From Akkermansia muciniphila (GTDB lineage: Bacteria; Verrucomicrobiota; Verrucomicrobiia; Verrucomicrobiales; Akkermansiaceae), in assembly GCF_030848305.1 (NCBI RefSeq), contig NZ_CP114598.1:124001-188000 (forward strand): a stretch of 64,000 nucleotides of DNA. The letters run 5' to 3'. How positions within the stretch are numbered: position 1 is the stretch's first letter; every line of letters starts with the position of its first letter. The notes beneath the pieces are model-generated. The model saw only the letters and a list, made by a program, of their open reading frames with translations. It was not told the DNA's origin and ran no database searches. The position numbers were made by a program, and so were the translations under genes. This document shows, piece after piece, positions 58,381 through 62,566 of the stretch.

Positions 58381-59769
58381 CTACAAGATTCTGATGCTCT
58401 TCACGCCATAATACATTGCCGCGCCTCTGTTGACGTAGTCTTCCGGGTTTTGAGACAGGTCCACCCAGAAAATGAAAGAGCACCACGGGGAGGGAGGAGA
58501 GAGGGGAGGAACAATGATTTCCTGCATGCCGGCCTTTTTCTGCTCCAGAATCAGGCGGACGCGCTTTTCATGCTGCCCGAACAGAAGCAGATGATCATGA
58601 ATGGTTGAAAAAACACATATTCCGGACAACGCCAGAAAAACAGCCACAGTTATCTGCGGACGGGGCACGGCACCGGGGATGCCGTACCACATACGAAGAA
58701 GGGCCAGCACGCCGATACCGAACAGCAGGGTGGCGGAAAACATGGCATGGTCCGCCGGAATGACGGCGGCGGCGAAAGAAAGAGCCATGGCATAAGACGC
58801 CAGAATATATGCCGCCGCTATTCCAAAGGGAATTTTCCATGCCCGGAAAGAGTTCCGGTCTCTGTGGAATTTTTTCCAGAGAACCCAGGCAGCCGCCACG
58901 CCCAGCAACACCGGAAGAGCCAGGTATTCATGCATCCGGAGCAGGAGCGAAGGGAGAGCTTCCCATCTGCTCCAAAAACCGGAAAGGGGTTCCGCACAGC
59001 CGGGAGTGGCGGAATGCATCCGGGCGGAAATGCCGGGCGCAAGCAGCATGCACAGGGAACCTGCCACCTGAAACGCAAGACCCGCATAAAACCACAGGGG
59101 AAGTTTTTCCTTCCGCACCAGGCGGACAAAGACGAACAAGGCTCCCAGCAACAGCCAGGTTCCCGGAATATTGTTTTCATTGGTCATGCCCGCCGGAAAT
59201 CCCAGAACAGCCGCAGCGGCAAACTTTCCCCAGCCATTGTTCTTTCCGGCATCCCCTTTTCTCCCGGATTCCGCGTCTTCCAGCAAACCGCGGTACAGAC
59301 ACAGAAAGCCCAGCCAGACGGCGGCGCCCCAGGAATAGTTGGTGGCGCCGGAGAGCCAGTAAATCGTGACGCCGGGCCGGGCCGTGCACGTGAACAGGAG
59401 GAGAAGCCCCAATCCGAACAGCCGCACGTCCGGCCAGGAACGGGGATCCACCCTGCACCCGGAAGCCAGATAAAACATCATCAGCGCAAGGCCGACCTGC
59501 ACAAAGGGGTTGATCAACATGAAGAGCCATTTCCCCGCCGTCGCTACGGCAAAGGCCAGGTATTCCCCGATTCTGGGATTCCAGGTCATGTAGGAGGCTA
59601 CGCAGCGTTCCCAAACCATGCTGGAAGAGAAGCAGTGCTCCATGCCCGTCAGGGCATGATGATACGTGTCAGAAGTGAGAGGACTCCACCAGCTGAGCAG
59701 CGCCGTATATAATAAGGCGGCTGCGGTCAGCGCCCAAAACCACACCTTGGACGTGCGGGGGGACATCAT
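58381..59769 (-). CDS. DUF6056-family polytopic membrane protein
   Basis: A 462-residue protein with about ten hydrophobic segments. It resembles DUF6056/GT-C-like proteins with an early membrane-flanking Asp (WWSPLTSDTYHHA), WNPRIGEYLAF and a sugar-transferase-like layout. Function is unproven; it may handle envelope sugars. Its ATG overlaps the ftsZ stop (TGATG), so it is translationally coupled to ftsZ. Confidence 0.78.
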   Translation of the reverse strand: MMSPRTSKVWFWALTAAALLYTALLSWWSPLTSDTYHHALTGMEHCFSSSMVWERCVASYMTWNPRIGEYLAFAVATAGKWLFMLINPFVQVGLALMMFYLASGCRVDPRSWPDVRLFGLGLLLLFTCTARPGVTIYWLSGATNYSWGAAVWLGFLCLYRGLLEDAESGRKGDAGKNNGWGKFAAAAVLGFPAGMTNENNIPGTWLLLGALFVFVRLVRKEKLPLWFYAGLAFQVAGSLCMLLAPGISARMHSATPGCAEPLSGFWSRWEALPSLLLRMHEYLALPVLLGVAAAWVLWKKFHRDRNSFRAWKIPFGIAAAYILASYAMALSFAAAVIPADHAMFSATLLFGIGVLALLRMWYGIPGAVPRPQITVAVFLALSGICVFSTIHDHLLLFGQHEKRVRLILEQKKAGMQEIIVPPLSPPSPWCSFIFWVDLSQNPEDYVNRGAAMYYGVKSIRIL

Positions 59770-61214
59770 CAGCTCGGATCCGGTTTCCTTTTCCGCAGAG
59801 CGGGAGGCAGATCCAGGTCTTCCCCGTCCAGAATGAGAGGACGCACACGGGCAAAAAGGCCGTGGCCCGCACGCTCTTCTTCCCCTTCCTCCGGAGGCAA
59901 GCCCTCTTCCAGTTCCTTGATATCAGGCATCGTGTCTGATTCCAACTCCGCCTCCGTTTCAGAACTTTGCGCAACAGGCGCGGATTCCAGAAGCGTTTCC
60001 TGCGCATCCGGCATATCGGAGACAGGCCTTACAGGCACCAGTTCCTCTTCCAATTCACGTTCATCCCTCTTGGGGACGGGGACAGAAAGGTCCGGCTCCG
60101 GATGCCGTTCCGGTTCGTCAACCGGGGCAGGAGGCGCGGGCTGAATAATAGTTTTTCCCTCTCCGAGGAAAGATTTTTCCTCCGGCACAAGCACTGTCTG
60201 CGGCTCCGCCTCCCGCTGAAACGCAACAGACGGGGAAACAGACGGCTCTACCACAGGCACGACGCCCAGCACGGTCAGGGACAGGCGGTCTTCCGGCTGC
60301 TGCGCCACGGAAGCGCCGATGTGGAGGCGCACGCCCCTTCCCAGGATTTCCGCCACACCGTCCACCAGGTCTTCCAGACGCTGCAGCGTCAGGGAACCTC
60401 CGCCGCGCACCAGAACCAGGACATCGTCCACTTCTCCCAAACGTTTTTCCAGAAAAAGCGGTGAATGACGGACCTGGTCCAATATATCCGCCACGGACGC
60501 ATCCGCAGACGCTTCACCCACGCCAAAGGTGCAAATCCCTTTTCCCGTTCCGGCTACGCTGAGCAGGTCGTCCAGCCCCACCCGAAGCAGAGTTCCGGAA
60601 GAATTCAACAGAGACGGCACAATAAGCACGGCGCGGGCAATAAGGGCATTAACCACGGAAAAGGCTTCCAGCACCCCCTTGTCAGGGTCTATGAGGCTTT
60701 CCATGGCGTCATTATCAAACCGCAGCACCATGTCGGAATACAGGGCAAGCCGGGCCAAAGCTTCATCCGCCTGGGCAGCGCGCCGTTCCCCTTCAAACCT
60801 GAAGGGACGGATGACAACGCTGACGACATAAGCCCCCTGCTCCTTGGCCAGGCGGGCCGCTTCCGGAGCTACGCCGGACCCCGTTCCCCCTCCCAGCCCG
60901 GCGACAAGAACAGTCAACGCGCTGCCTTCCAAAGCACGGAGAATGGAAGATTCGCTTTCACAGGCCGCCTGAGTTCCTACGGAGGCATCTCCGCCGGAAC
61001 CGAGTCCCCTGGTAAGCCTGGCGCCCAAATGGACCTTGCACGGAACGGCTGAGGCGTTCAATAGCCGGGCATCAAGATTCATGGCGCAAACGGAAACTGG
61101 CTGGGGAGCCAGCAGCAGCACTTCCTCCATTACCTTGGTTCCTGCGGCCCCAATGCCGCACAGGCAGATTTTTCCGGGCAGGCCGGACGGCCCCTGGGGA
61201 GAAATTTCCAGCAT
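59769..61214 (-). CDS. ftsZ: Cell-division GTPase FtsZ, divergent
   Basis: The tubulin-like ring protein. The ATG at 61214 gives 481 residues. T4 is GLGGGTGSG (107-114), and MNLDARLL and TRGLGSGG match T2/T3. Two catalytic regions deviate: the T1 loop is GIGAAGTKV instead of the usual GVGGGGGN(A), and the synergy (T7) loop reads LRVGLDDL where most FtsZ have (I)NLDFADV, losing the first conserved Asp and Asn. A long acidic linker (about 340-465) ends in LDLPPALRKRKP, a conserved C-terminal peptide for FtsA binding. It follows ftsA by 25 bp. Confidence 0.88.
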   Translation of the reverse strand: MLEISPQGPSGLPGKICLCGIGAAGTKVMEEVLLLAPQPVSVCAMNLDARLLNASAVPCKVHLGARLTRGLGSGGDASVGTQAACESESSILRALEGSALTVLVAGLGGGTGSGVAPEAARLAKEQGAYVVSVVIRPFRFEGERRAAQADEALARLALYSDMVLRFDNDAMESLIDPDKGVLEAFSVVNALIARAVLIVPSLLNSSGTLLRVGLDDLLSVAGTGKGICTFGVGEASADASVADILDQVRHSPLFLEKRLGEVDDVLVLVRGGGSLTLQRLEDLVDGVAEILGRGVRLHIGASVAQQPEDRLSLTVLGVVPVVEPSVSPSVAFQREAEPQTVLVPEEKSFLGEGKTIIQPAPPAPVDEPERHPEPDLSVPVPKRDERELEEELVPVRPVSDMPDAQETLLESAPVAQSSETEAELESDTMPDIKELEEGLPPEEGEEERAGHGLFARVRPLILDGEDLDLPPALRKRKPDPS

Positions 61215-61239
61215 GGTTGTTAATTTGGATAAAGGTTGA

Positions 61240-62451
61240 TCAGGAGTTCTTCTTTCCGAAGAAGCCCAGCATCCGTCCCAGCCAGCTGCGCTGCTGCGGC
61301 AGCTCGGCATCCAGAATCTGGGCATACCGTATCAGGCCTATGGCCGTGCAGTAGCGCGGATCATCCAGGTAGGAAGGCGCTCCGTTTTTAACCAGCGTAG
61401 GCCGGCTGATGGCCACGCCGAACACGTGGGAGGCCAGTTCCCCCACGCCGCGCATCAGGCTGGCGCCCCCGCACAGGTAAACGCCGTGGCAGCGGTTGCC
61501 CTTGAAGGTGTCCTTGGGCAGGGAGGATTTGACCAGATTGAAAATTTCCAGCAGTCGGGAACGGATGATTTCATTCAGCACATTGCGTTCGATGGCGGCA
61601 TCCTTCATATGCCCGTCTCCACGCACGCGCACCATCTCGTTGGTTTTCCCGGAAAAGCTGTTGGCGTCCCCTTCCGTCTTCTTGAGCAGTTCCGCCTGGG
61701 CCAGAGGGATGCCGGTCATCAGCGTGATGTCGTTGGAAATGTGGTCGCCGCCCAGCGGCACGCATCCGGAGGCCACAAGCTGGCCGTCCAGGTAAAGCAC
61801 ATAGTCCGTCGTGCCCGCACCCATGTCAATAAGCAGGGCGCCTGCCTGTTTGACCTGCCTGTTAAGCACAAACTGGGCCGTGGCAATGGGGGCGAAAACC
61901 ACATCCGCAATATCCAGCGGGACTTCCCGCACGCAACGGAAAGAGTTGGTAATGCGGGATTTGATTCCGTGGATGATATGGCAGTCAATGTCCAGGGTTC
62001 TTCCTGTCAAGCCGGCGGGATTGGTCAGGTTTTCCTGCCCGTCCACGGAAAAGAGACCGGGCACTCGGTGCAGAACGAATTGTTCCGGCCCCAGGGCGAC
62101 GTCCCGGGCGATTTCCGTCACCTCGTCCATATGCTCCTGGGAAATAATGCTTTCATCCGGGGGAAGACGGAACGTTCCCCGGTTGTTCTGCCCCACAATA
62201 TGAGCCCCCGTCACGGACAGATAGACGGTCATGATATCCACGTCCGCATGGTCCTGGGCCATATTCCAGGCGTCGTAAATGCACTGGATGACCTTGGAAG
62301 TGTCTTCAATCTCTCCGCGAACCACGCCCTCGCTAGGAACCTCACCCACGCCGATGATTGTCACGGTCGCATCGGGCTTCACTTCGCCCACGACCATGCA
62401 AGTCTTGCTTGTCCCTATCTCAAGCCCTACGTGAATTTTTGTCTTAGCCAT
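61240..62451 (-). CDS. ftsA: Cell-division protein FtsA
   Basis: An actin-like membrane anchor for FtsZ, 403 residues. The nucleotide-fold motifs are HVGLEIGTSKTCMVV at the start, LIDMGAGTTDYVLY and VYLCGGASLMRGV, and the C-terminal amphipathic helix (SWLGRMLGFFGKK) inserts into the membrane. I use the ATG at 62451. It comes directly before ftsZ. The ftsQ and mur genes of a full dcw cluster are not in this window. Confidence 0.95.
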   Translation of the reverse strand: MAKTKIHVGLEIGTSKTCMVVGEVKPDATVTIIGVGEVPSEGVVRGEIEDTSKVIQCIYDAWNMAQDHADVDIMTVYLSVTGAHIVGQNNRGTFRLPPDESIISQEHMDEVTEIARDVALGPEQFVLHRVPGLFSVDGQENLTNPAGLTGRTLDIDCHIIHGIKSRITNSFRCVREVPLDIADVVFAPIATAQFVLNRQVKQAGALLIDMGAGTTDYVLYLDGQLVASGCVPLGGDHISNDITLMTGIPLAQAELLKKTEGDANSFSGKTNEMVRVRGDGHMKDAAIERNVLNEIIRSRLLEIFNLVKSSLPKDTFKGNRCHGVYLCGGASLMRGVGELASHVFGVAISRPTLVKNGAPSYLDDPRYCTAIGLIRYAQILDAELPQQRSWLGRMLGFFGKKNS

Positions 62452-62566
62452 GAAAATCAAGGAACTATCAACGTCCTCGCACCTGATAGCACATTACTTT
62501 TCATTATTCAAGAAAGCCTGCGCGAACATACGCAGAAAACGCGGTTTTCCTCCGCGCTGCCCCGGT

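Follow-up and report, generated by a model that had tools for sequence, protein, structure and literature searches.

Altered T7 and T1 loops in the FtsZ of Akkermansia muciniphila and their distribution in Verrucomicrobiota

Current models place both aspartates of the T7 loop, together with K+, at the centre of GTP hydrolysis and treadmilling by FtsZ, and mutants altered at one position fail in E. coli or S. aureus. In the 64,000-nucleotide stretch of Akkermansia muciniphila DNA analysed here (the window), the ftsZ gene encodes a protein in which the first of these aspartates and the conserved asparagine of the same loop are replaced. The 2.65-Mb genome, a single contig, has no other tubulin-family gene, and a second FtsZ was rejected on that ground.

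Family membership and gene setting

The window protein was assigned to FtsZ by domain, fold and tail. Its residues 15-318 align to B. subtilis FtsZ in a phmmer search (6e-44), and it scores 110.6 bits against Pfam Tubulin (PF00091, threshold 33). It falls slightly under the gathering score of Pfam FtsZ_C, and its 177.3 bits against the NCBIfam equivalog TIGR00065 are under the cut-off of 295.2; as this cut-off is a naming threshold, the shortfall is a sign of divergence, not of non-membership. The AF2 model (pLDDT 93.3) has an ordinary FtsZ core with a strand and then H8 at the place of T7/H8 in FtsZ, H8 beginning right behind the loop, and its best matches in Foldseek and VIA-align were all FtsZ (VIA-align Z 34-37 over ~305 residues). 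The protein thus combines the Tubulin/FtsZ GTPase domain and its signature, the FtsZ fold including the C-terminal domain, and a C-terminal peptide with an ftsA neighbour; the pattern DLD-P--LRK of this peptide is common to the whole order. Identity as a bacterial tubulin was rejected, since the window protein gave no phmmer match to BtubA/B at E 0.001, the gene is single rather than one of a pair, and the matches are FtsZ structures up to 6e-44.

Table 1. Features of the ftsAZ locus, with positions in the window
Feature	Position	Strand	Description
ftsZ	59769..61214	-	481 aa, starts MLEIS
C-terminal FtsA-binding peptide	59784..59819	-	DLDLPPALRKRK (aa 466-477), intact
T7 synergy loop	60564..60590	-	LLRVGLDDL; R211, G213, D215 and D216 correspond to N208, D210, A212 and D213
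Arg145	60780..60782	-	S. aureus R143, catalytic finger-like Arg, kept
T4 tubulin signature	60873..60899	-	GLGGGTGSG (GGGTGSG at aa 108-114), intact
Arg50	61065..61067	-	Position 48 (Q48R), on the H2 side of the GTP interface; Arg in 149/149 Verrucomicrobiales (named loci admitted partly by this residue), Gln in 8/8 outgroups
T1 loop	61131..61157	-	GIGAAGTKV (aa 20-28); G21A/S and N25K relative to canonical FtsZ
ftsA	61240..62460	-	~26 nt upstream of ftsZ; ordinary FtsA (TIGR01174, 312 bits, cut-off 176)

On the other side of ftsZ, a DUF6056 protein (58381-59769) is encoded on the same strand, and its start codon touches the ftsZ stop. The ftsAZ pair (59769-62460) lies ~600 kb from ftsW and a likely ftsQ (C1:792516-798449) and is thus separate from the dcw cluster; the whole genome yielded a single FtsW/RodA homologue. 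In several genomes of the genus Akkermansia, a tandem second ftsA is located directly upstream of ftsZ (G030:C73:3845-6299, also G002:C22, G006:C74 and G043:C91), and these second copies have 43-47% identity to the window FtsA.

Altered residues and their distribution

Residues are numbered here as in S. aureus/B. subtilis FtsZ, with window positions given separately as aa. The T7 loop, INLDFADV in B. subtilis (207-214), reads LRVGLDDL in the window protein (aa 210-217), which gives N208R, D210G, F211L and A212D and leaves D213 unchanged. The alignment of a profile of 93 relatives to solved FtsZs is gap-free within this loop. The T1 loop is GIGAAGTKVM in place of canonical GVGGGGNNAV; the informative changes are G21A and N25K, since ordinary FtsZs themselves vary at positions 22 and 24. 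An earlier note on this DNA had read both loops in this way, with the signature and the C-terminal peptide kept and ftsA adjacent, and the alignments and the gene map agree with it; they add that the second catalytic aspartate survives and that an extra aspartate has been gained next to it. Within the canonical NxDxxD arrangement, Asn208 and Asp210 are thus Arg and Gly, whereas Asp213 and the facing Arg143 are present, and the two residues of the canonical K+ site, the N208 side chain and Q48, are both Arg. Compared with S. aureus and B. subtilis FtsZ (PMC8936486; PDB 7ohk, 2vxy), the window protein shares the fold, T3-T4, D46, R143, D213 and an ordinary monomer architecture, but differs by Q48R, N208R, D210G, A212D, D97A, N25K and M226F. 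Position 97 is Ala in the window protein, and the R67-D97 salt bridge is absent from S. aureus FtsZ in the GDP state (PMC8936486). D187N was dropped as an oddity, as E. coli normally has Asn there. Sequencing error was rejected as the source of the loops, which 14 sequences of the A. muciniphila clade share.

To follow the changes, key positions were tabulated in an alignment of 184 FtsZs of the phylum, extended with 80 named loci and E. coli and then with five more sequences; eight sequences and the solved structures served as controls from outside the phylum. R48 and G210 each occur in 149/149 Verrucomicrobiales sequences, from Akkermansia to Prosthecobacter and Verrucomicrobium, a count in which the named loci (L211-L273) were admitted by these two residues and 98 anonymous genomes (of the genus, family and order) by taxonomy alone. 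Both residues are present in 98/98 of the genomes admitted by taxonomy and in 60/60 of a non-redundant set at <82% identity, and within the order they equal D46, G72 and E139 in invariance, also in the 60-sequence set. D212 is found in 143/149 and an acid (D/E) at 213 in 149/149, and position 208 is N, R, K, H or Q. Read at positions 48, 208, 210, 212 and 213, the window protein has R R G D D, Prosthecobacter R K G D D, Luteolibacter/Roseibacillus R N G D D, and Verrucomicrobium (sp. BvORR034; loci L269 and L292) R R G A D. Most Chthoniobacterales/Spartobacteria loci have Q R G D D. The outgroups (E. coli, B. subtilis, Acidobacteria, Atribacteria and CPR) have Q N D A D, and Opitutales have Q or K, N, D and A followed by Thr, Ser or Ala at 213.

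The remaining positions differ in reach. D97 is lost in most of the order and retained in 26/26 Opitutales and 8/8 outgroups, M226F is present across much of the phylum, and K25 occurs in 14/14 of the A. muciniphila clade, most of the remaining order having N at this position. The core carries 15 clade-specific changes; those that alter charge (Q48R, D210G, A212D) all fall on or next to the T7/H2 contact reported in PMC8936486. The alignment marks D210G as the older change, present throughout the order. N25K and G21A/S are confined to the A. muciniphila clade, and N208R is a recurring change. The earlier note had treated the change as particular to the window protein; most of it is ancestral, leaving only N25K/G21A and the clade's N208R as local.

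The gene evolves fast under constraint. Within the A. muciniphila clade, the dN/dS of the FtsZ core is 0.06-0.12, indicating purifying selection and leading us to reject a pseudogene, and core dN is about five times that of FtsA (FtsA has 97-99% identity where the FtsZ core has 82-95%). Between this clade and other Akkermansia, identity is 37% for the FtsZ core and 52% for FtsA, and against other genera of the family it is 37% and 51%; among those other genera themselves it is 83% and 75%, respectively. These comparisons describe a window-clade FtsZ that is fast-evolving yet constrained, not decaying.

Loss of an acid and gain of a cation partly go together. Of 132 non-redundant sequences, 78 lack only D210, 30 lack only D213, 22 have both acids and 2 have neither; an acid at 213 is kept in 78/80 sequences without D210, and Arg or Lys at 48 or 208 is found in 69/80 of these, in 13/30 without D213 and in 4/22 with both acids. 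All of these are counts of related sequences, and about six changes on the tree suffice for the loss of D210. Independent pairs relating D210 loss to a cation at 48/208 and to an acid at 212 gave no significant result, with three supported pairs. The coupling of cation gain to D210 loss is therefore suggestive only, and there are counterexamples: G210 is combined with Q48 in Chthoniobacterales, and R48 with N208 in Luteolibacter-like genera.

A proposed one-aspartate GTPase site and rival readings

In filaments of S. aureus FtsZ, the attacking water is placed by a swing of D210 and held by D213 together with the facing G72, R143 acts like an arginine finger, and a K+ in T7 is bound by N208, with Q48 of the next subunit in contact with both the K+ and N208 (PMC8936486). 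N208L, D210N and D213N each abolish assembly there, and Q48A and R143K reduce GTPase activity (PMC8936486); a changed GTPase cycle in the window protein is a fair inference because the three former mutations abolish assembly. In E. coli, Q47K (equivalent to Q48) and D212G fail to complement (PMC8936486, PMC5405962). Verrucomicrobium spinosum divides by binary fission, and its ftsZ is essential (PMC12283558).

We propose, with a probability of roughly 55%, that the window FtsZ is functional and that its GTPase interface has been rebuilt around one T7 aspartate, D213, rather than lost, with an arginine in the K+ site and a slower, less K+-dependent turnover. GTP would still drive head-to-tail assembly, and hydrolysis would proceed on D213 with the kept R143. 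The guanidinium of Arg48, with that of Arg208, would fill or neutralise the K+ site that canonical filaments have between N208 and Q48; turnover of GTP would then be slower and less dependent on K+, the filaments would live longer, and the C-terminal peptide, which is intact, would still let FtsA tether the polymer. Function in cells follows from relatives, since V. spinosum ftsZ is essential and its congeners (L269, L292) carry D210G, R48 and R208; the L292 ORF has 677 aa, near the 673 aa of V. spinosum FtsZ in PMC1845146, and the residues are those of the congeners. The window ftsZ is probably essential in Akkermansia as well. Judged from these residues, slower and less K+-dependent turnover is likely; slowness in particular is plausible by analogy, given the loss of the swinging Asp and the F226 that also occurs in the slow Spiroplasma FtsZ, if the two positions are equivalent. 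One T7 acid plus an arginine charge at the cation site would be the simplest account that gives all the invariant residues a meaning. Against it stands that single changes of this kind are damaging in canonical E. coli and S. aureus backgrounds.

A filament that binds GTP and assembles but barely hydrolyses it, its turnover left to other factors, is unlikely, though it has arguments on its side. D210, which positions the water in S. aureus FtsZ (PMC8936486), is absent, the window clade also alters N208 and N25, and M226F resembles the GTPase-lowering Phe of Spiroplasma FtsZ (PMC11987601), with equivalence of position assumed. However, D213 and R143 show little or no variation, which a pure scaffold would not need, and the conserved new motif points to retained catalysis. 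The suspicion in the earlier note that GTP use or turnover is altered is upheld in so far as the catalytic and interface residues are changed as it stated, but turnover that is absent altogether is unlikely given an order-wide invariant motif, a single copy, purifying selection and the essentiality in V. spinosum.

The accompaniment of D210G by A212D (143/149 Verrucomicrobiales, 14/14 Chthoniobacterales) would be accounted for if D212 did the work of D210 at canonical speed. We consider such a full relocation improbable: position 212 is Ala or Ser in other FtsZs and need not face the phosphate, and Verrucomicrobium-type FtsZs combine G210 with A or S at 212, yet ftsZ is essential in V. spinosum (PMC12283558). 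Because these proteins have G210 without D212, D212 is unlikely to be an obligatory substitute acid.

Relaxed selection, under which the FtsZ of the phylum would be losing its motor function as a step towards the FtsZ-free division of Planctomycetes and Chlamydiae, is very improbable. The FtsZ core is less conserved than FtsA between the window clade and its relatives, it scores under the NCBIfam cut-off, and far more degenerate FtsZs exist in some other families of the phylum; the low dN/dS, the invariance or near-invariance of G210, R48, D46, G72, E139 and R143, the single copy adjoining ftsA and the essentiality in V. spinosum all argue the other way. Misalignment, by which the canonical Asn and Asp would lie elsewhere in the T7 loop, as the earlier note had allowed, can be dismissed: single-residue insertions do occur just outside the loop (on the SSGT and AGTGKG sides), but phmmer, the profile and the 184 aligned relatives, many reading GLIN-x-G-LDEL, have no gap in it, and the strand and H8 of the AF2 model are at the expected places.

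Comparison with other FtsZ and tubulin systems

In beta-tubulin, the T7 catalytic acid is replaced and the nucleotide that it faces is not hydrolysed, and the protein alternates with a catalytic alpha subunit; the subunits of a window FtsZ filament, in contrast, are all identical. Among bacteria, verrucomicrobial FtsZs are some of the most divergent (PMC9871819, PMC1845146). A description from 2007 called V. spinosum FtsZ canonical but noted divergence at eight conserved positions (PMC1845146). It resembles the window protein in its long C-terminal extension and, through its congeners, in R48, R208, G210 and D213 (PMC1845146; PMC12283558), but it has Ala at 212, keeps N25 and is longer. Opitutales FtsZs likewise have F226 and have lost one T7 acid, but the opposite one: D213 is replaced, D210 is kept and Q48 is mostly kept. 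The FtsZ of Nitrosopumilus maritimus is also a natural FtsZ without the NxDxxD loop, but it has lost the GTP-binding signature and forms no polymer in yeast, and division in this organism is by Cdv (PMC3684127), whereas the window protein keeps the signature and has no other FtsZ beside it. Spiroplasma eriocheiris FtsZ is a natural slow GTPase (0.16-0.2 per min, partly ascribed to Phe at 226; PMC11987601), but its catalytic residues are intact.

Division in Verrucomicrobiales and Chthoniobacterales probably runs on a modified, not a broken, FtsZ motor. A wider formulation, that GTP hydrolysis in these two orders uses a single T7 acid and an arginine of the protein itself in place of K+ and that the sister order Opitutales kept the other acid, making two opposite single-acid solutions in one phylum, is possible but doubtful. 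Our search of openly readable literature found no work on Akkermansia FtsZ biochemistry or the verrucomicrobial T7 loop and no earlier report of the T7/H2 rewiring or of the opposite Opitutales pattern; the divergence and the essentiality in V. spinosum were already known. A whole clade, including gut Akkermansia and the cultivable Prosthecobacter and Verrucomicrobium, divides without the first T7 aspartate, and its natural, intact FtsZs allow the need for the second acid, for the cation and for turnover speed to be examined. Inhibitors and models developed with the E. coli or S. aureus protein may not carry over to Akkermansia. The proteins form a series of graded cases on a branch adjacent to Planctomycetes and Chlamydiae, which lack FtsZ.

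Elsewhere in the phylum, four genomes of 2.3-2.5 Mb from one family (L155, L156, L158 and L159; f8) have an extremely degenerate sole FtsZ with a barely alignable T7 and an altered tubulin signature (GGGMGSA, GGAMGSA, GGTTGSE), and their FtsA stays similar. In another family (L194-L198; f25), the only FtsZ match per genome has the shortened signature CCGGGT-[SA]G. A second FtsZ-like protein of ~370 aa with the signature TGGGTGNG is present in several Verrucomicrobiota that do not belong to the class of the window, among them L167 and L170 (f28 and f29).
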